Source: Histomonas meleagridis (lineage: Eukaryota; Parabasalia; Tritrichomonadida; Dientamoebidae). Taken from it: DNA of 64,000 nt. Position numbers and translations under genes: made by a program. Under the pieces are notes generated by a model, which saw only the letters and a program-made list of their open reading frames with translations, made no database searches and was not told the DNA's origin. Shown here in pieces: positions 8,156 through 55,648 of the stretch. Position 1 is the first letter of the stretch. Each line of letters opens with the position of its first letter. The stretch is from NCBI GenBank assembly GCA_020186115.1, contig WSYJ01000081.1, forward strand, positions 62,001 to 126,000. Reading direction: 5' to 3'.

Positions 8156-9331
8156 TTAGTTAATTTTGATGAATCCTTTTTCATCATCAAAGTAAAGGTT
8201 TAAGTTATCACAAGAAATCTGCTTAAAGTACTGCACACACTCATTTCTTTTCTTTAAGAAAGCCACATTCATTGGAGTCAAAAACATGAAAAACGAATAC
8301 CTTCAAATGAAAAAATGAAACATTATCTGTCGCATCAATTTCCGCTCCATAATGAACCAAAAGTTGAACAACATAAACGTTACCTCTAGCAGCAGCATAA
8401 TGTAATGGCGTTTTACCTTTTGAATCAATTATAGAAACGTCAGCGCCTTTTGTAAGTAAAATATCACACATGTCATAAAAACCTCTTTGACATGCGTAAT
8501 GTAATGGTGTTAAACCTTTTTTATCTTGACAACTCAAATCAGCATCGATTTCGATCAGTTTTTCCAATACATCTGCGTTCCGTTTAGAAACGCAATAATG
8601 CAATGGATAAATTCCTTTTTTGTCACATACTTGTTGTGGGCTTTGTTTTATGATGTATTCAATCAATTCGATATTATCGTTTTGAATTGCTTCAGTTAAT
8701 AATGTACTAAATGTTTCAAAAAAATACCATTAAATGTGAGAAAAAAACACCCATATGTTGGTTAATATCACAATTAACTGATAAAAAGAAATCAACAATA
8801 TCAAAATGATAAAAATGTGCAGCAAGATGTATTGGTGAAAAACCATTACGTGTTAAAAGATTTATTGGTGAGCCATTAGACCATAACCACTGGCATACCT
8901 TTAAGCGGCCATGCTTGGCTGCAATATGAATGGGATAAACATCGATTTTAGATGTGGATGTTGGAATTCCATTTTGTTCAAGTAGCAAAAAAAGATTAAT
9001 CGTACCATTATATGCAGCAAAATGAGCTAGAGAACGAAAAAAAATAAATAAACGCCTGAAAATATTAAGAAAAAACTGAATCTTCATGTTTTACATTATG
9101 TTCTGAATAACTAAAAATGTAAGCTAAACATTTAATTGCATTGAAGTATGCAGCAATGTCGCTAATATATGGTCTCTTTCTGAAACAAACTGGCATATCA
9201 TTATATGTTGTTGCAAAAACTAGATTTACAGTTGAATATGAAAAAATGAGTTTTTTGAAACTTTCAATATCATCTTTTTGAAGTATTGGTATAAGATTTA
9301 AAGCATCTTCATCCGATAGAGTTTGTTCCAT
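8156..9331 (-). CDS. Ankyrin-repeat protein in four coding blocks
   Basis: Four ankyrin-coding blocks on the minus strand read as one gene: ATG at 9331 to about 9077, 9033 to about 8749, 8705 to about 8322, and 8278 to the TAA at 8156-8158. The last block (TPMNVAFLKKRNECVQYF, ending FIKIN) is clear ankyrin sequence in a third frame. Each block after the first opens at the T/S of the TPLHxA motif. Between blocks lie T-rich interruptions of about 43 nt (9076-9034, 8748-8706, 8321-8279), each shifting frame by one. Removing about 43 nt each time restores a continuous protein with near-standard 33-residue repeats. They may be introns, but no GT..AG pair gives the right frame, so the gene may instead be decayed. 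Function would be protein-protein interaction. Confidence 0.65.
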
Positions 9332-24052: not shown

Positions 24053-24612
24053 ATGGTATGAATTTTTTTCTTATTCTAGGGTGGGAATTCAAGTGTAGCT
24101 CAAAGAAGGTTATTGTTTCTTGGATTAGATAATGCAGGAAAAACAACAATTTTAAAAGCTATGAGTTGCGAAGATCCAACAACAATTGCGCCAACAAGAG
24201 GTTTTAATGTTAAACAACTCCAAAAAAACAACATGGAATTAAACATTTGGGACATAGGTGGACAAAGAGCACTTCGACCTTATTGGGCCAATTATTATAA
24301 TAAAGTTAATGGAATTGTATGGGTTATAGATAGCGCTGATTCTAGAAGAATGGAAGAAACTGGGATTGAACTTTCTTCATTGTTAGATGAGGAAAAATTA
24401 GCAGGTGTTCCTTTGGTGATATTAGCAAACAAACAAGACTTAGCAACAGCTGCGAGTCCAGATGAAGTATTTTTCTTTTTTAACAATAGATTACAATTAA
24501 TTTAGGTTTACATCAAATCCGCAATCGAAGTTGGCAGATTCAAGGATGTTCTGCTGTTACAAAAGAAGGCCTTGATGATGCTTTAAATTGGTTGTGTGAC
24601 GCAATGAAATAA
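24053..24612 (+). CDS. ARL3-like Arf-family GTPase, three exons
   Basis: Exons are 24053-24055, 24080-24466 and 24490-24612, giving 170 residues. Exon 1 is only the ATG; splicing joins it to GGT GGG so the protein begins M-G-G-N-S-S, with Gly2 available for myristoylation. The P-loop GLDNAGKTT, switch region [28 protein letters not shown] and CSAVTKEGL are all intact. The block [21 protein letters not shown] and the C-terminal [18 protein letters not shown] match ARL2/ARL3 closely, with ARL3 preferred. ARL3 releases lipid-modified cargo in cilia, which fits a flagellate. The N-terminal helix is about six residues shorter than in human ARL3. Without removal of the second intron the frame runs into TAG at 24503-24505 and loses the last 41 codons. 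Confidence 0.9.
24056..24079 (+). other. 24-nt intron directly after the start codon
   Basis: Begins GTATGAATTT and ends TTATTCTAG. Removal joins ATG to GGT GGG AAT and the open ARL frame; upstream of the ATG the same register has an immediate TAA. Position and frame support it strongly. Confidence 0.8.
24467..24489 (+). other. 23-nt intron in the ARL gene
   Basis: Begins GTATTTTTC and ends TTTAACAATAG. Removal restores the frame and produces [17 protein letters not shown], which aligns with the ARL3 family without a gap. It shares GTAT, a T-rich middle and terminal TAG with the first intron. Confidence 0.85.
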
Positions 24613-24839: not shown

Positions 24840-26105
24840 ATGAACAATAATAAAAAACAAAAGATAAACATAGAGTTACAAGATGAATATAAATTTCTTT
24901 TATCCATCATGCAGACAATTTTTGATATGAACATGAAAAATATATCTCAATCAGTAAATTCAATAATTAACAAATTCGATGATATTTACCCATTATCTTT
25001 TAAAATGATCATCATCCAAATGACATATGCAGCGTTTGTTATAAGAAGACAAGAAGTTGATGTTTATTTAAGTTTTTTGGATGGGATTAAAATGTTTGAA
25101 GATAAAAATCAAAATATTTCAGGTTTTCTTGATGAATTTATAAAATTTCTTCTTGGTAAATATACAGGAGAATCAGACTATCTTCTTCAAAATATGAATG
25201 ATCATGGTTTACTTGAACCAACAATTATTAAGAACAAAAATAAAACATATTTTGTTCATTATGTGTCAGAAGATGAACCAAAAAAATATAAAATCCAGTA
25301 TTCAGAACTTTCAAAGAATGATTGGGAAATTCATAAGAAATTGATTAAAGAAGGACATAATCCAACAGTAATTGCAAAAATAATTCGAAATGATGAAATC
25401 GAACAACTTCAAGAAATATCATCACAAACAAATTTTGATTTTGATCAATTTATTGAACCATCAATTTATGAAAGGTGTTCATTCGTTAATGAAGAAGATG
25501 TTTCATTAATTGATTATGCAGCATTTTTTGGATCAGTTAAATGTTTTAAATATTTACTTATGAATGGCGCAAATGTAATTAGCACAGGTAAATATGCAGT
25601 TGCAGGTGGAAATGAAGAAATTATTCATTTGTGTGAACAGAATCATTCAACATTTGAAAATGCATATGAAACAGCAATTATGTTTCATCAAAATGATATC
25701 TTTCAATACATTTATGAAAACAAATTAGAATTTAATGAAGCTTATAATTATAATATAGAAAAATTATGTGAATGTTGTATTTTATATTATAATTATGAAA
25801 TTTTTTCATTTTTACTTAATAAGGGAATGAAAATTAATGATGATATTATCAATAAATCAGCAGAAATTGGTAATTTATATCTTGTTAAACTTTTTCTTCA
25901 AAGCAATCAAATTCCGAATAAAATTTTAGTTTATTCATCAGCATCTGGAAACATTGAACTTCTGAAATATATTTTAGAACAAAATAATGTTAATATTAAT
26001 GCTAAAAATATTTATTGTATTTATTTAATGTTTATTTTAATAATTTTATATTTCAAAATAATATTTGATAATTATTTATATTATTTAATACTGCACTTAT
26101 TTTAG
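24840..26105 (+). CDS. DUF3447-type ankyrin protein A, N-terminal ORF
   Basis: A 421-codon open frame from ATG at 24840. The first 150 residues form the helical N-terminal region seen in trichomonad ankyrin proteins. It is followed by SELSKNDWEIHKKLIKEGHNP, EPSIYERCSFVNEEDVSLIDYAAFFGSVKCFKYLLMNGA and GKYAVAGGNEEIIHLCEQN, the DUF3447/ankyrin block, and then degenerate ankyrin repeats. The last repeat reads ILEQNNVNINAKNI, after which the frame runs through spacer DNA to a TAG at 26103. Coding blocks of further ankyrin repeats continue downstream (26090-27260) in shifted frames, so the natural protein is probably longer if the spacers are bypassed. It is closely related to the gene at 28898 and the pseudogene at 55649. 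Function is unknown beyond protein binding. Confidence 0.8.
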   Translation: MNNNKKQKINIELQDEYKFLLSIMQTIFDMNMKNISQSVNSIINKFDDIYPLSFKMIIIQMTYAAFVIRRQEVDVYLSFLDGIKMFEDKNQNISGFLDEFIKFLLGKYTGESDYLLQNMNDHGLLEPTIIKNKNKTYFVHYVSEDEPKKYKIQYSELSKNDWEIHKKLIKEGHNPTVIAKIIRNDEIEQLQEISSQTNFDFDQFIEPSIYERCSFVNEEDVSLIDYAAFFGSVKCFKYLLMNGANVISTGKYAVAGGNEEIIHLCEQNHSTFENAYETAIMFHQNDIFQYIYENKLEFNEAYNYNIEKLCECCILYYNYEIFSFLLNKGMKINDDIINKSAEIGNLYLVKLFLQSNQIPNKILVYSSASGNIELLKYILEQNNVNINAKNIYCIYLMFILIILYFKIIFDNYLYYLILHLF

Positions 26106-27260
26106 CATCTTTTAAAGGTCATATAGAAATAGTTAAATTACTTCTTGTACAAAAAGGAATTGATATCAATGCAAAAAATATTCATTTGATTTATTTAATG
26201 TTTATTTCAATAATATGATTTTTTAAAATAATAATTGGAAATTATTTAAAATATTTTATACAGCGCTTATAGAAGCAACTGAAAATAGTTATATAGAAAT
26301 TGTTAAATTACTTCTTGAACAAGAAGGAATTGATATTAATTCTAAAGATATTTATTTATTTTATTTAATATTTATTTTAATAATTTTCTATTTCATAATA
26401 ATATTTGGAAATTATTTAAATTATTTCAAACAGCACTTATTAGAGCATCTGAAAATGGTAAAATAGAAATAGTTAAATTACTTCTTGAACAAGAAGGAAT
26501 TGATATTAATTCTAAAGACATTTGTTTGTTTTATTTAAAATTTATTTTCATATTCTGGAATTTCAAAATAGTATTTGGAATTCATTTAATTTATTTAATA
26601 CAGCTTTTATAATTGCATCTGAAAATGGTAAAATAGAAATAGTTAAATTACTTCTTGAACAAGAAGGAATTGATATTAATTCTAAAAATTTTTATTTGTT
26701 TTATTTAATATTTATTTTAATAATTTTATATTTCAAAAAAATATTTGGAAATTATTTAAATTATAAAATACAGCACTTATGTTAGCATCTTCAGAAGGCC
26801 ATACAGAAATAGCTAAATTGCTTCTTGAACAAAATGGAATTGATATTAATTCTAAAGATACTTATATTTTAGAATTATATTAGGAAATTATTTGAAGTAT
26901 TTAGAACAGCACTTATGTGGGCATCTCAATATGGTGCTTTAGAAATCGTTAAATTACTTCATGAACAAAACCAAATTGACATTAATGCTGAGGATATTTA
27001 TTTGTTTTATTTAAAATTTATTTTAATAAATTGATATTAAAAAATAATATTTGGAAATTATTCAAATTATTTAATACAGCACTTATGTTAGCAACTTCAG
27101 AAGGTCATACAGAAATAGCTTAATTACTTCTTGAACAAAAAGGAATTAATATTAATGTTGAAGATATTTATTTGTTTTATATAAAATTTATTTTGATAAT
27201 TTTATATTTCAAAATAATACTTGGAAATTATATAAAATATTTAATACAGCACTTAGTTAA
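26090..27260 (+). repeat. Array A: ankyrin blocks in 170-bp tandem units
   Basis: Eight ankyrin starts (ACT/ACA GCx CTT/TTT) lie at 26090, 26260, 26430, 26600, 26770, 26906, 27076 and 27246. The spacing is 170 bp except for one step of 136. Each full unit is 31 open codons (93 nt, TALxxAS...EIVKLLLEQxGIDINxKDI) followed by a 77-nt AT-rich spacer (43 nt in the 136-bp unit). Because neither 77 nor 43 is divisible by three, consecutive blocks are in different frames. Blocks 1-6 have no internal stop; block 7 has TAA at 27121-27123; block 8 ends after four codons (TAA 27258-27260). Confidence 0.85.
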
Positions 27261-27465
27261 TCGATTATGATAATATACGAATATGTGAAGCAGTTATCAA
27301 AGATTAAAATAAAATAATTCTGGTTAAATTCTCTCAAAACGCATCTTCTTCAATTTGAAGAGAAGCTTCTTATTCATTTATATCTGAAATTGTTATCATT
27401 TATATTAAATAAAAGTTAATTTCGTTGTTTCACATTCAAAATAATTTTTTTTTAAAAAAATTGAT

Positions 27466-28314
27466 TTAATGAATCTTCCAACTGTTGATCATCTTTGTAA
27501 ATTCTGGATCATAGTGATTAACTATTTCACTATGTCCTTTATCTAACTTGGCTACTTCGTTCATTTCTTCGTCAGTGAGCTTGAAGTCCCAAATGTTAAG
27601 GTTCTCAGCCATGCGATCCTGACGAACTGACTTTGGAATGATGACAACACCACGTTGTGTGTTCCATCGAAGGGCAACTTGAGCTACTGATTTGCCATGT
27701 GCTTCGGCAATCTTCTTGAGCGTTTCATTTTGGAAGATTCCGAACTTTCCTTCAGCAAGTGGGGCCCATGCCATGATTTGGATCTTGTATTCCTTCATAA
27801 GTTTCATTGCTTCGATTTGTTGATAGAATGGATGAACTTCAACTTGGTTAACATGTGGAACAATACGAACATTCAAGCAAAGATCAAGAAGGCGGTCATT
27901 GTAGAAGTTGGAGACACCAATTGCACGGATTTTCTTGGCTTCATATAATTCTTCCATGGCACGCCATGAACCATAGTAGTCACCATATGGTTGATGGATT
28001 AAGTAAAGATCAAGGTAGTCAAGACCGAGTTTCTTCATGGATGTTTCGAATGCTTTCTTGGCATTTTCATAGCCTGCATCTTGAACCCAAAGTTTGGTCA
28101 CAATGAAAAGTTCTTCTCTGGGAACGCCACATTCTTTGATAGCGGCACCAACAGCTTCTTCGTTGTAGTAAGCTGCAGCAGTATCGATTAATCTGTAACC
28201 TGTTTTAATGGCATCAAGAACTGCTTGTTTGGTCTGTTCGCCATCTGGAACTTGGAAAACACCAAAGCCTTCGAGTGGCATGACAACACCATTGCTAAGT
28301 GTAACGTTTTGCAT
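27466..28314 (-). CDS. Aldo-keto reductase
   Basis: The open frame reaches TTG at 28365; the first ATG is at 28314, giving 282 residues and starting MQNVTLSNGVVMPLEGFGVF. The catalytic tetrad is visible: Asp44 (RLIDTAAAY), Tyr49, Lys73 (VTKLWV) and His106 (LIHQP). The NADPH-binding tail contains IIPKSVRQDRMAENLNIWDF. This is the small AKR5-like form common in bacteria and also found in trichomonads and kinetoplastids (2,5-diketogluconate reductase or prostaglandin F synthase type). It reduces aldehydes and ketones with NADPH; the natural substrate cannot be told. Codon use is less AT-biased than in the flanking ankyrin genes, consistent with high expression or past transfer from bacteria. Confidence 0.94.
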   Translation of the reverse strand: MQNVTLSNGVVMPLEGFGVFQVPDGEQTKQAVLDAIKTGYRLIDTAAAYYNEEAVGAAIKECGVPREELFIVTKLWVQDAGYENAKKAFETSMKKLGLDYLDLYLIHQPYGDYYGSWRAMEELYEAKKIRAIGVSNFYNDRLLDLCLNVRIVPHVNQVEVHPFYQQIEAMKLMKEYKIQIMAWAPLAEGKFGIFQNETLKKIAEAHGKSVAQVALRWNTQRGVVIIPKSVRQDRMAENLNIWDFKLTDEEMNEVAKLDKGHSEIVNHYDPEFTKMINSWKIH

Positions 28315-28897
28315 GAAAGTGATTTGATTTAAGGTTTCTTTTCTGAAACTTTTTTTCCTTCTCAATTTTTATCGGAATTAGAATGAAAACCGTTTATACA
28401 AGTTATTACGGTTTTTATCGCCCTTCTGGAAGGAATTCAGAACTTTATTCAAATCATAATTTAATTAACCGTATAATTCCAAAGAAATTTATTGTACGAT
28501 AGGAATACGTTAAAATTTCATTTAATGAGGTCATAACTCCAAATCATACGGTCAATATGCACCAAAATTGTTTTATGATGAATAAAAGTGTACAAAATGA
28601 CAGATTCATTCGTATCAAATTTCTTGTTTCAAATGTGAAAAATTTGAACGTAAAATTCTCAACAAAAGATCGTTTAATCAATCTTATTGATGTTGCTTTG
28701 ATCGGACGATTTGTTAACTTTTTGGCTTTTTTTTTAATCTGCTTCTCGGTTAATCAAAAAGTTATCGTTTTTCACTGGAATAACAGTGTGTTTTCGGACT
28801 TTTTATATGCGTTTTAATCGTCAAGTCTTCATTCAAATGTTAAAATGAGAAACAGTCCCAGTAAAAAGATTGACACTATAAAAGATAAAAATAATGA
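28315..28897. other. Divergent upstream region with a small ORF
   Basis: The gap holds the promoter of the aldo-keto reductase and of the ankyrin gene at 28898. A TACGATA element lies at 28495-28501, 55 bp before an 86-codon frame (28557-28817) rich in Phe, Ile and Leu. That frame could be a small gene, but its composition is also what chance gives in AT-rich DNA. Confidence 0.35.
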
Positions 28898-30070
28898 ATG
28901 GGAAATAATAAATTGATTCAAAAAATCATTATTAATCTAAGTGATAAAGATATTAAACAATCAGCACAATCAATCATGGAAATATTTGATGAGAAATATA
29001 GGTATTCCTTTAACTTAATTCTCAGTCAAATTATATATGAATTCATTGATATACGATTTTGTAAATTATATTTTTCTTTCATGAAGGAAATTGAAACATT
29101 TGAAGAGAAGAATTATCATGAATTCAATATATTTCATGTATTTCTCGATGTGCTTCAAAGTAATTCTCAACGTAAATCATGTTATCTCATTGATTATATG
29201 ATTAAAGAGAAATATGCTGATTCAACAATTATTAAATTCAAAGGAGATCCATATTTTGTTCATTATTTAAATCAAAAAGAAATTGATAATATGTTTATCT
29301 CACAAAATTTATATGTAAAACAATTAAAAGAAAATTATGAAGAACTATCAAAGAATGATTGGGAGCTATATAAAAAATTAATTGAAGAAGGACATAATCC
29401 AAGTAAACTCGCGAAAATGATTCGAGATGATGAAATAGATAAACTTCAAGAAATATCATCTCAAAATGATTTTGATTTTAATAAAAATATTGAACCATCA
29501 ATTTATGAACGATGTTCATTTATTGATCATTGGGTTAGCTTAATTGATTATGCAGCCTTTTTTTCTTCAGTAAAATGTTTTAAATATTTACTTATGAATG
29601 GTGCAAATGTAAAATATACAGGTAAATATGCAGTTGCGGGTGGGAATGAAGAAATCATTCATTTATGTGAACAAAATCATTCATCATTTGAAGGTGCATG
29701 TGAAACTGCAATTGAATTTCATCGAAATGATATCTTTAAATATTTTTATGATAATAAATTAAAAGAAATTAATAATTTAGAAGAATTAGGAAAGTTTTGT
29801 ATTTTTTATCAAAATTATGAAATATTTTCATTTTTACTTAAAGAAGGAATGAATATCAATGATGATATTATTAATGAAGCAGCAACGATTGGAAATATGT
29901 TTTTAACAAGATATTTTCTTAGAAAATATCAACAACCAAAATATATTTTAATGTCTGCGTCAAAATCAGTAAATTTCGAACTTGTTCAATTCATACTACA
30001 ACTAAAAGGAATTGATATTAATGCTAAAGATATTTATTTGTTTTATTTAGAATTTATTTTATTAATTTGA
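28898..30070 (+). CDS. DUF3447-type ankyrin protein B, N-terminal ORF
   Basis: A 390-codon frame from ATG at 28898, a clear paralogue of the gene at 24840. Shared blocks are EPSIYERCSF, SLIDYAAFF.SVKCFKYLLMNGANV, GKYAVAGGNEEIIHLCEQNHS and DIFKYFYDNKL. The frame stops at TGA 30068-30070, inside the spacer that follows the repeat ending GIDINAKDI. Ankyrin coding then continues as array B. The N-terminal 140 residues diverge from protein A more than the DUF3447 block does. No signal peptide is seen, so a cytoplasmic scaffold is likely. The role is unknown. Confidence 0.8.
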   Translation: MGNNKLIQKIIINLSDKDIKQSAQSIMEIFDEKYRYSFNLILSQIIYEFIDIRFCKLYFSFMKEIETFEEKNYHEFNIFHVFLDVLQSNSQRKSCYLIDYMIKEKYADSTIIKFKGDPYFVHYLNQKEIDNMFISQNLYVKQLKENYEELSKNDWELYKKLIEEGHNPSKLAKMIRDDEIDKLQEISSQNDFDFNKNIEPSIYERCSFIDHWVSLIDYAAFFSSVKCFKYLLMNGANVKYTGKYAVAGGNEEIIHLCEQNHSSFEGACETAIEFHRNDIFKYFYDNKLKEINNLEELGKFCIFYQNYEIFSFLLKEGMNINDDIINEAATIGNMFLTRYFLRKYQQPKYILMSASKSVNFELVQFILQLKGIDINAKDIYLFYLEFILLI

Positions 30071-30111
30071 TATTCCAAAATAATATTTGGAAATTATTTA
30101 AATTATTTAAA

Positions 30112-31244
30112 ACAGCACTTATTTATGCATCTAGAAATGGTCATACAGAAATCGTTAAATTACTTCTTGAACAAGAAGGAATTGATATTAATGTTAAAGA
30201 TATTTATCTGTTTTGTTTATTATTTATTTTAATGATTTGATATTTCAAAATAATAATTGGAAATTATATAAATTATTTAAAACAGCACTTATGTTAGCAT
30301 CTAAACTAGGTCATATAGAAATAGTTAAGTTACTTCTTGAGCAAGAAGGAATTGATATTAATGCTAAAAATATTTATTTATTTTATTTAAAATTTATTTT
30401 AATGATTTGATATTTCAAAATAATAATTGGAAATTATATAAAATATTTAATACAGCACTTATTTATGCATCTTTAAATGGTCATTTGGAAACAGTTAAAA
30501 TACTTCTTGAACAAAAAGGAATTGATATTAATGCTAAAGATATTCATTTATTTTATTTAATATTTATTTTGATTATTTGGGATTTCTAAACCAAATTTGA
30601 TGTTTCATAATAATATTTGGAAATTATTTAAATTATTTTATACAGCACTTATGTGGGCATCTAAATATGGTCCTACAGAAATCGTTAAATTACTTCTTGA
30701 ACAAGAAGGAATCGATATTAATGCTAAAGATATTTATTTGTTTTATTTAAAATTTATTTTAGTAATTTTATATTTCAAAATAATATTTGGAAATTATCTA
30801 AATTATTTAAAACAGCACTTATTTATGCATCTAGAAATGGTCATACAGAAATCGTTCAATTACTTCTTGAACAAGAAGGAATTGATATTAATGCTAAAGA
30901 TATTTATTTGTTTTATTTAGAATTTATTTTAGTAATTTTATATTTCAAAATAATAATATTTGGAAATTATCTAAATTATTTAAAACAGCACTTATTTATG
31001 CATCTAGAAATGGTCATACAGAAATCGTTAAATTACTTCTTGAACAAGAAGGAATTGATATTAATGCTAAAGATATTTATTTGTTTTATTTAGAATTTAT
31101 TTTAGTAATTTTATATTTCAAAATAATATTTGGAAATTATCTAAATTATTTAAAACAGCACTTATTTATGCATCTAGAAATGGTCATACAGAAATCGTTA
31201 AATTACTTCTTGAACAAGAAGGAATCGATATCAAAATACCTTAA
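30112..31244 (+). repeat. Array B: seven intact ankyrin blocks in tandem units
   Basis: Ankyrin blocks start at 30112, 30282, 30452, 30642, 30812, 30985 and 31155 (steps 170, 170, 190, 170, 173, 170). All seven 31-codon blocks are free of stops, and the last ends EGIDIKIP with TAA at 31242-31244. Spacers are 77, 77, 97, 77 and 80 nt, none divisible by three. Units are more alike than in array A, pointing to recent duplication. The spacers are open in the upstream frame for about 10-20 codons (YLFYLxFILxI) and in the downstream frame just before the next block (FQNNIWKLFKLF). Confidence 0.85.
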
Positions 31245-45028: not shown

Positions 45029-46134
45029 AATTCATTTAAGTTTCAGTATTAATTCATCACAGCATTCCAATTGCACAATATCGCGTTATAAATATATGGT
45101 TGTAACAACAAGTGATGAATAAATTAAGACTGTGTTAAATTTTATTTTACCATTTTAAAAATTTATTATTTTTTCTATATTCCATTACTGATAATAAAAT
45201 CAATTTTAAAATATCATAATGATAACGCTCTAAATAAAATAGTTAACGTCTTTTGCCAGGATTTGCCAGCCTTATCTAAATAAATGCTTTTAACATTACT
45301 TTTCTCATTCATAATTTCAGAAGAAGAAGGTGAAGGAGTTTATTCATCACGTGAGTACATTTTTTACCACTTGCTAAAACAGAATTTATCACAGGTAAGT
45401 CATTATTACCAGATTATCCGAACAACCGAATACCTATTCAACGATTTTTCCGAGTATTAAGTTCATTTTTAGTTCACAATGAAGAAGGATATGGATTACA
45501 AGAAGTTTTTGGTCATGTTACAAGTTTAAGTGATTCTAATGATTTTATATGGAATTTCACATCATATGGACTTGGAGGACGTCTATCTAATGAAGATCAA
45601 ACGACATTTTTACATTTATGTGAACTTGATCAAGAGATGGAGTCTGGTAACTTTAATCTTGATATTTATGCTAAAGTTACATCAGAAGACGGAGTTAATT
45701 ATTCAGTTCTTTTATTTAATGAGACAGCTGAATTTTATGAAGTAGTTAATATCAAAGAGCGCCTTGGTACCGTTTTCCTTTATCTTTTCTTTGTGTTTGT
45801 TGTTGGTTATATTCTTTATGTTATCTTCACTAAAGACAAAAGCAAAGTGGCCACGAAACCAATTCGCAAACAAAAGATTGCAGATTACAGCGAGATTCAT
45901 CGTTCAACATCACCAGGACGTAACTCATCACCAGCACGAAAAGCATCGCCAGTGCGCAAAGCATCACCATCAAAGTAAACTAAACACAACAGAAATAATT
46001 TTAAATTTTATATTATTTTTTACTCAGTTTTTTTATTTGTTTTCTTACTGTACATAAATATATGAACACTTTGATGTTTTCCAATTTTACTTAAATAATT
46101 TATTTTCATCTTTCAAACAAGAATATTATTCATT
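44998..46134 (+). repeat. Segmental duplication, copy 1 (source)
   Basis: About 1137 bp, from the last ten codons of the dehydrogenase through the TRAP-alpha gene to CAAGAATATTATT, is repeated almost identically at 54517-55648 in the same orientation. Differences are a few substitutions and single-base indels. Confidence 0.93.
45284..45978 (+). pseudogene. TRAP-alpha (SSR1-like), copy 1, frameshifted
   Basis: From ATG 45284 a signal-peptide-like start (MLLTLLFSFIIS) is followed by an acidic EEEGEG stretch. Compared with copy 2, two extra bases at about 45354-45366 shift the frame after some 24 codons. From there the rest of the gene is open to TAA 45976-45978: luminal domain, one membrane helix (GTVFLYLFFVFVVGYILYVI) and a basic cytosolic tail with repeated SPxR/KASP motifs. 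Acidic N-terminus, luminal fold, membrane helix and basic tail fit the alpha subunit of the translocon-associated protein (TRAP) complex at the ER Sec61 channel. A base-calling error, or use of GTGAGT as a splice donor in this copy, would be alternatives to a true lesion. Confidence 0.75.
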
Positions 46135-54516: not shown

Positions 54517-55648
54517 AATTTTGCGCAAATCCAAATGTTTATGATTAAAATTCATTAAGTTTCAGTTTATTTCATCACAGCATTCCAATTGCACAATATC
54601 GCGTTATAAATATATGGTTGTAACAACAAGTGATGAATAAATTAAGACTGTGTTAAATTTTATTTTACCATTTTAAAAATTTATTATTTTTTCTATATTC
54701 CATTACTGATAATAAAATCAATTTTAAAATATCATAATGATAACGCTCTAAATAAAATAGTTAACGTCTTTTGCCAGGATTTGCCAGCCTTATCTAAATA
54801 AATGCTTTTAACATTACTTTTCTCATTCATAATTTCAGAAGAAGAAGGTGAAGGAGTTTATTCATCACGTGGTACATTTTTACCACTTGCTAAAACAGAA
54901 TTTATCACAGGTAAGTCATTATTACCAGATTATCCGAACAACCGAATACCTATTCAACGATTTTTCCGAGTATTAAGTTCATTTTTAGTTCACAATGAAG
55001 AAGGATATGGATTACAAGAAGTTTTTGGTCATAGTTACAAGTTTAAGTGATTCTAATGATTTTATATGGAATTTCACATCATATGGACTTGGAGGGACGT
55101 CTATCTAATGAAGATCAAACGACATTTTTACATTTATGTGAACTTGATCAAGAGATGGAGTCTGGTAACTTTAATCTTGATATTTATGCTAAAGTTACAT
55201 CAGAAGACGGAGTTAATTATTCAGTTCTTTTATTTAATGAGACAGCTGAATTTTATGAAGTAGTTAATATCAAAGAGCGCCTTGGTACCGTTTTCCTTTA
55301 TCTTTTCTTTGTGTTTGTTGTTGGTTATATTCTTTATGTTATCTTCACTAAAGACAAAAGCAAAGTGGCCACGAAACCAATTCGCAAACAAAAGATTGCA
55401 GATTACAGCGAGATTCATCGTTCAACATCACCAGGACGTAACTCATCACCAGCACGAAAAGCATCGCCAGTGCGCAAAGCATCACCATCAAAGTAAACTA
55501 AACACAACAGAAATAATTTTAAATTTTATATTATTTTTTACTCAGTTTTTTTATTTGTTTTCTTACTGTACATAAATATATGAACACTTTGATGTTTTCC
55601 AATTTTACTTAAATAATTTATTTTCATCTTTAAAACAAGAATATTATT
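54517..55648 (+). repeat. Segmental duplication, copy 2 (derived)
   Basis: About 1132 bp matching 44998-46134. It begins AATTTTGCGCAAATCC, which at the source locus encodes the last residues of the dehydrogenase, so here it is an orphan gene tail. Its right end at about 55648 abuts an ankyrin pseudogene lacking its first codons. Confidence 0.93.
54802..55496 (+). pseudogene. TRAP-alpha (SSR1-like), copy 2, frameshifted
   Basis: From ATG 54802 the frame stays open for 82 codons, through the region that is shifted in copy 1 (SSRGTFLPLAKTEFITGKS). An extra A near 55033 then leads to TGA at 55048-55050. A further extra G near 55094 returns the sequence to a frame open to TAA 55494-55496, with luminal domain, membrane helix and basic KASP tail. 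The two +1 insertions are absent from copy 1, so each copy carries lesions the other lacks. Both copies have 695 bp from ATG to stop. Homopolymer-type differences mean sequencing error remains possible for all three sites. Confidence 0.75.

Follow-up and report, generated by a model that had tools for sequence, protein, structure and literature searches.

Open ankyrin blocks separated by spacers of varying phase in Histomonas meleagridis: candidate intron-like elements, mostly lacking frame-keeping GT-AG borders

How can a gene encode a run of ankyrin repeats if its repeats are separated by AT-rich stretches that break the reading frame? This question is raised by two paralogous genes, here termed A and B, in a stretch of 64,000 nucleotides (nt) of the Histomonas meleagridis genome (C50:62001-126000, hereafter the window). 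Both have an N-terminal part with DUF3447 and ankyrin similarity, followed by an array of ankyrin blocks mostly 170 base pairs (bp) apart. We propose, with a probability of roughly 0.6, that the blocks are exons and that the spacers between them leave the RNA as intron-like elements without an AG end. The relevant features, all on the forward strand, are the following:

24840..26102 (+), open frame of gene A, 421 amino acids as read, from the open reading frame list, with Pfam matches to Ank_2 and DUF3447
26004..26086 (+), first spacer of gene A, between ..NVNINA and NTAL
26087..27159 (+), array A, seven ankyrin blocks, each from x-TAL (x being any codon) to IN plus one codon
27160..27329 (+), last spacer of array A and a truncated eighth unit (NTALS-stop)
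28898..30067 (+), open frame of gene B, 390 amino acids, DUF3447/ankyrin N-terminal region, terminated within the first spacer by a TGA
30026..30108 (+), first spacer of array B, between ..GIDINA and KTAL
30109..31238 (+), array B, with seven ankyrin blocks, all open
31152..31244 (+), terminal block of array B, open up to GIDIKIP and followed by a TAA stop in the block frame

The original prediction from the letters of the window alone described two paralogous arrays of mostly 170-bp period, and the block starts bear this out. The blocks of array A begin at 26090, 26260, 26430, 26600, 26770, 26906 and 27076 (four periods of 170, then 136 and 170) and are separated by spacers of 83, 83, 83, 83, 49 and 83 nt, the codon before TAL being excluded from the count; those of array B begin at 30112, 30282, 30452, 30642, 30812, 30985 and 31155 (periods of 170, 170, 190, 170, 173 and 170), with spacers, counted in the same way, of 83, 83, 103, 83, 86 and 83 nt. 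The tandem-repeat scores (1154 for array A, 1380 to 1799 for array B) agree, and the frame 30597-30917 is matched by the Pfam ankyrin model PF00023 at 33.9 bits against a cut-off of 21.1. The frame of gene A extends through the N-terminal DUF3447/ankyrin region to ..NVNINAKNIY and then runs on through the first spacer. Translation of the blocks confirmed six open blocks among the seven full ones of array A and seven in array B; the seventh block of array A holds an in-frame TAA, and its truncated eighth block begins at 27246, 170 bp past the seventh. The proper end claimed for array B after GIDIKIP is likewise present, with the stop ending at 31244. Inside the window the spacers do always shift the frame, as was stated, but genome-wide 32 of 196 distinct spacers in the first and 24 of 41 in the second of two families defined below are multiples of three. 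The arithmetic by which removal of 71 nt would leave one 33-residue repeat (99 + 71 = 170) is correct, but the data only bound the edges of the removed piece and do not fix its length at 71 nt. The unit limits given for the repeat also required extension, as the unit takes in the codon before TAL, which is a sense codon in 230 of 230 units of the first family examined.

The two arrays belong to a large family (family 1). The assembly searched comprises 43,276,120 bases in 121 contigs and is not identical to the published assembly of virulent H. meleagridis, for which the sections of the description used here give 187 contigs and 43,414,808 bases (PMC8529796). Array B, itself counted, matches at least 105 places in it at 70-100% identity. 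A genome-wide search for regularly spaced blocks, suggested with the original prediction, recovered with exact anchors 994 junctions in which the end of one block is followed by the start of the next after a gap of 60-90 nt, against none for reversed controls; spacer-free junctions (gap 3-33) with the same exact anchors numbered zero genome-wide, looser anchors not having been searched. Nucleotide anchors served to cut 233 units out of the window and 20 fetched loci. One locus, L012 (C72:127000-136900), was set apart as decayed: its array of about 39 units and 7 kilobases, with an N-terminal part surviving only in pieces and with deviating lengths in 7 of 38 blocks, is a decaying, satellite-like array, and these off-length blocks indicate that the unit-cutting method does detect decay. 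Outside L012 the block length is 84 nt in 190 of 195 units (81 in two, and 85, 87 and 90 once each), and one of the 190 exact-length blocks, the seventh of array A, contains a stop. Spacers of 86 nt are found in 156 of these 195 units and the remainder range from 52 to 106 nt, apart from four lengths (0, 236, 239 and 2952) omitted from the phase count as artefacts; among the 191 retained, 170 are in phase 2 modulo 3, 16 in phase 0 and five in phase 1. By eye, family-1 spacers can be read as about four degenerate 20-nt units. The N-terminal frame is intact over at least 346 codons in 13 of the 22 family-1 arrays examined (L009, L010, L013, L016, L020, L021, L022, L024, L026, L027, L028 and both window genes).

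Eight further loci were fetched; L040 carries units of the family-1 type, and L033-L039 define a second family, with blocks of type ETALHIAVKNNNIEIVKLLLDKGIDVNAK and spacers that are mostly tandem runs of a 20-nt unit close to GGAATATGTTTTAATAATTT. These spacers constitute a minisatellite inside a coding array, with unit copy number differing between adjacent repeats and with periods (including 130, 147/150, 167/170, 187, 207 and 227) that proceed in 20-nt steps. As 20 is not a multiple of three, every extra unit changes the frame, and the blocks are open nonetheless (43 of 43 motif-selected blocks). Single arrays can combine different spacer phases with blocks that are all open, as in L026 (14 of 14) and L037 (13 of 13).

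Are the blocks, then, kept open by selection? Using spacer differences as a mutation yardstick, we compared 76 disjoint nearest pairs drawn from 159 distinct 170-bp family-1 units, all with a block of 87 nt, counting codon x, and a spacer of 86 nt. Block changes involving stops were observed once against 15.5 expected at spacer rates; read in the two shifted frames, the same blocks show 47 and 57 stop gains or losses. At framework codons, nonsynonymous changes number 90 against 209.9 expected (ratio 0.43) and stops 0 against 8.7; at the tail codons KDIYL the corresponding values are 36 against 49.1 and 0 against 6.8. Contact codons, namely the codon before TAL and the most variable helix positions, picked after seeing which vary, present the opposite picture, with 114 nonsynonymous changes against 72.2 expected, 8 synonymous against 16.3 and 1 stop against 6.8; their ratio of nonsynonymous to synonymous rates (dN/dS) is 3.2, i.e. 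diversifying. The codon before TAL is itself highly variable in family 1, with 15 amino acids and no stop. These variable positions probably form the ankyrin binding face, as in designed ankyrin proteins. A tree-based stop count (52 changes against 34.1 expected) was rejected and replaced by the nearest-pair test: multi-nucleotide codons had been reconstructed site by site, and the excess was taken as an artefact since only one of 190 blocks has a stop. The comparison of block with spacer dN/dS that had been envisaged at the outset therefore yields stop avoidance and a framework/contact split, and not blocks that are slower overall than the spacers; it is on the former two that the coding case rests. 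As far as sequence can demonstrate it, selection at the protein level acts on the blocks while the spacers are present, and block integrity is indifferent to spacer length and phase.

Such selection could in principle act elsewhere. The arrays might be untranslated cassettes from which gene conversion carries blocks into expressed ankyrin genes, selection on the recipients keeping the blocks coding and contact-diverse; a constrained framework with diversifying contact codons does resemble donor cassettes, and some arrays stand behind broken N-terminal frames with their blocks open. We nevertheless regard this as unlikely, because conversion would need to stop at block edges, no spacer-free junction accompanies the 994 spaced ones in the assembly (within the exact-anchor search), and family 2 is equally intact despite little variation before TAL (E in 41 of 43 blocks). 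Were the arrays dead copies instead, a tandem expansion would have spread a defective unit too recently for the blocks to decay. The equal conservation of A and B spacers and blocks, the stop and truncated end of array A, the decay of L012 and several broken N-terminal frames would fit this scenario, but the near-absence of stop changes in the block frame beside their abundance in the shifted frames is contrary to it, as is the fact that two diverged families with different spacers both keep their blocks open; we consider it improbable. For the same reasons, together with the framework constraint, the contact-codon diversification and the mixed phases among open blocks, silent decay is contradicted as one of the three options offered in the original prediction, and non-canonical, intron-like removal is, as a hypothesis, the best of the three.

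If the spacers are indeed removed, their borders should lie within limits set by the coding frame. In 155 family-1 spacers of 86 nt the earliest in-frame stop is at position 18 (the seventh codon) with none before it, and the tail codons avoid stops, which places the 5' edge roughly 6 to 20 nt past the spacer start. The 3' edge would be separated from the TAL that follows by no less than 3 nt and, judging by the TAATAA of family 2, by no more than about 8 nt. Common to both families are ATTYATTTG after NAK plus one codon and ATTT ahead of codon x. Direct repeats at the spacer ends were considered as cut points and rejected, as by eye their spacing is off frame. Counting GT..AG pairs only, a frame-keeping pair is available in 13 of 196 distinct family-1 spacers and 9 of 41 family-2 spacers; in family 1, AG is missing between the coding edges of 147 of 196 and an ordered GT..AG from 159 of 196. 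The borders of most spacers are thus non-GT-AG, as far as the coding frame limits them, in agreement with the earlier judgement that ordinary introns do not explain them.

No common fold emerged from the spacers examined. Family-1 spacers have a mean z-score of -0.08 (40 sampled), and alifold on 139 of them returned no pairs. Family-2 spacers fold better (mean z -1.25), with sense and antisense means of -11.5 and -2.9 kcal/mol, respectively, over 40 spacers; as sense folding exceeds antisense, base pairing may have a role in this family. Its alifold consensus has one 5-bp hairpin near the 5' edge, with a second short hairpin in the 86-nt set, and the strongest single hairpin (z -3.79) belongs to a family-2 spacer and rests on its 20-nt repeats. 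A fold joining the spacer ends was absent from the family-2 alifold, and no fold was common to all spacers tested.

It might still be argued that these are ordinary GT-AG introns with misplaced sites, the true exon limits differing from those suggested by the ankyrin frame. Of the distinct family-1 spacers, 78% have a G at position 14 (91% of the 86-nt ones), mostly as GT, ACAG is present at most block starts, and GT-AG introns of 23, 24 and 71 nt can be seen by eye elsewhere in this genome. Joining the position-14 GT to the ACAG of the next block is, however, off frame by one, the codon before TAL behaves as coding, and AG or frame-keeping pairs are as scarce as given above, so that we hold this explanation to be improbable as well. 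Translational recoding, in which ribosomes read through, shift frame at or hop each spacer, is very improbable: one shift could bridge 141 of 157 phase-2 and 7 of 7 phase-1 family-1 spacers and 14 of 32 in-phase ones are open, but stops forbid read-through or a single shift in 34 of 196 family-1 and 40 of 41 family-2 spacers (24 of 24 in phase with in-frame stops, 16 of 17 out of phase not bridgeable by one shift), which contradicts these two modes for family 2, the shift needed differs from spacer to spacer within one array, and, judged by eye only, no take-off/landing codon pair for hopping is common to both families.

Interruptions of a comparable kind occur in other ankyrin genes. We fetched seven regions in which open frames of 171-274 codons match ankyrin strongly; as they were picked for short frames, the resulting count establishes the existence of the pattern but not its frequency. 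Eleven loop interruptions with readable repeats on both sides were found in L047, L051, L052, L053 and in a separate ankyrin gene of another type in the window:

8241..9331 (-), ankyrin gene of other type with T-rich loop inserts, two loops analysed and a third seen by eye

L047, L051 and the window gene each have one more interruption, which is not among the 11; L049 has plain 102-nt steps and no insert, L048 a stop and odd steps, and L050 gave none to count. The inserts measure 14-55 nt against a repeat of 99 or 102 nt, three of the 11 leaving only 17 nt by one count. A T directly precedes the codon x that stands before the next T-P/A-L motif in 9 of 11. Only L052 has inserts with a frame-keeping GT..AG, two among the 11; one of the two is a possible normal intron of 22 nt, a point in favour of ordinary introns. 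The two counted loops of the window gene have no frame-keeping GT-AG, and their T-rich inserts end in T before the next repeat. In L053 (minus strand) we noted four loop inserts, two of them of about 17 nt and one resembling family-1 spacers (..IWNLFDLFWTAL).

Among proteins, ten relatives align to gene B at 41-50% identity. Eight of the 16 relatives in ENA (P0002-P0017), namely P0003, P0005, P0006, P0007, P0008, P0010, P0011 and P0013, end no more than three codons past the IN/VN/ID of the final repeat, at the point where a spacer would start, and others continue into a hydrophobic stretch resembling a spacer. As a separate observation, P0022 (Tritrichomonas foetus), P0023 and P0027 have a hydrophobic stretch at an ankyrin loop, like a retained insert; by eye, no AG can be accommodated in P0022 by the codons possible immediately ahead of the following TP motif. 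A search of prokaryote and viral contig collections for DNA relatives of P0003 gave pattern matches, none of which was confirmed as a relative, and when an open stretch from another ankyrin gene served as a protein query, the 96 ankyrin proteins returned were uninformative.

Conventional introns exist beside these elements. The window, which also encodes UPF1-like, TOR-like and aldo/keto reductase genes, includes an ARF-like GTPase gene with two of them:

24053-24612 (+), ARF-like GTPase gene split by two GT-AG introns
24056-24079 (+), 24-nt GT-AG intron directly after the ATG, junction by eye
24467-24489 (+), 23-nt GT-AG intron, frame-keeping at a conserved site, junction by eye

In length these introns roughly match the short type-B introns of Trichomonas. 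At L030 a DHHC-like gene has its frame broken by a classical 71-nt GTATGT..ACTAACACACAG intron (by eye). The trichomonad 3' motif ACTAACACACAG has three exact matches in the genome, two of them, including that at L030, with GTATGT upstream, against two for the reversed control, and none lies inside the fetched arrays; a type-B-like intron pattern was not enriched genome-wide (27 against 82 for the control). A U6 small nuclear RNA-like sequence (L032; G000:C36:377228-377335) reaches 43.7 bits, slightly short of the Rfam cut-off (44). The sections consulted of a T. vaginalis intron paper mention introns in ankyrin-domain genes (PMC12316389). Elsewhere in the window, an 18-bp unit, CATCACCAGCACGAAAAG, forms two tandem stretches (45908-45969 and 55426-55487) about 9.5 kilobases apart, possibly a local duplication.

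Taken together, the cell probably removes the spacers without the usual GT-AG intron signals. We envisage the arrays as tandem exon-plus-spacer units, in which each block (codon x, the stretch from TAL to INAKD and probably some codons beyond) would be the exon of one ankyrin repeat, and each spacer a short AT-rich intron-like element excised from the RNA, before translation, whatever its length, so that the repeats would be read in one frame. Given that most spacers have no frame-keeping GT-AG and that no common fold was found, either the spliceosome would use AG-less sites here or a separate activity would act. More tentatively, and with somewhat less than even odds in our estimation, Histomonas and perhaps related tritrichomonads may harbor at least 1000 AG-less elements in ankyrin loops, ranging upward from less than 20 nt, beside GT-AG introns elsewhere; an unknown or strongly modified splicing activity would remove them, so that repeats could duplicate and shuffle freely as their binding surface diversifies.

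Several observations weigh against the removal of spacers as intron-like elements. Substitution is not lower in the blocks as a whole: whole-block dN/dS is 1.09, counted on the tree, first, second and third codon positions have 6.96, 5.46 and 7.39 changes per site, respectively, against 5.13 in spacers, and between arrays A and B mean identity is 0.849 for spacers (16 pairs of 86 nt) and 0.834 for blocks (42 pairs), so that overall identity alone cannot tell spacers from blocks. The nearest-pair test excluded 107 block codons that carry multiple differences, and framework synonymous changes are themselves below expectation (52 against 73.7, ratio 0.71), which suggests that spacer rates may overstate the expectations. 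With a looser protein motif set, stops occur in 6 of 230 family-1 blocks (0 of 43 in family 2), and the terminal repeats of L033 and L035 contain stops. The N-terminal frame is short, split or stopped in L012, L014, L015, L017, L018, L019 and L025 and was not found within the fetched stretch of L011 and L023, the blocks of all these loci being mostly open; with the frame damaged or missing in nine of 22 arrays, some loci may be dead. There is no boundary motif or single dinucleotide pair that fits all spacers, and P0009 has one unspaced junction ahead of a spacer-like end. The sections consulted of the published accounts, finally, describe 573 to 638 annotated introns in Histomonas with at most one per gene (PMC8529796) and all 63 introns of T. 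vaginalis as GT/AG (PMC12316389).

Such spacers were not described in the literature we searched on the H. meleagridis genome and introns and on Histomonas ankyrin proteins. If the proposal is right, an intron-poor eukaryote holds more interruptions than have been annotated, concentrated in one protein fold and lacking the near-universal AG acceptor, and provides a natural test of the tolerance of 3' splice-site rules; a large, diversifying ankyrin repertoire would have escaped gene models that allow no more than one intron. If the arrays are silent instead, a large reservoir of coding modules is kept intact without obvious expression, which itself needs explanation.

The proposed elements share features with several known systems. 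In exon-per-repeat ankyrin genes one repeat occupies each exon, the interruption falls in the inter-repeat loop and the unit is multiplied by tandem duplication; the present spacers differ in mostly lacking a frame-keeping GT-AG, in their varying phase and in their internal 20-nt units. The byps of yeast mitochondria and the insert of T4 gene 60 likewise break the frame and are absent from the protein, but the spacers are nuclear, exist in about 1000 related copies and have, by eye, no common take-off/landing pair. Silent gene cassettes such as vls similarly comprise many related coding blocks with a conserved framework and variable spots, although here the assembly holds no spacer-free copy with the same exact anchors. 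The type A and type B spliceosomal introns of T. vaginalis are also short and AT-rich and also come from a parabasalid (PMC12316389, in the sections consulted); unlike them, the spacers have neither the 5' motif nor the fused branch/3' motif, mostly lack a frame-keeping GT-AG and occur many to a gene. The nonconventional introns of euglenids (PMC6221363) and the noncanonical introns of diplonemids (PMC12621601), as presented in the parts of these reports drawn on here, can pair to bring their ends together, whereas no such shared fold was found for the spacers, single family-2 spacers folding well; like the spacers, both are inserts without GT-AG ends in the coding genes of hosts that also possess canonical introns.

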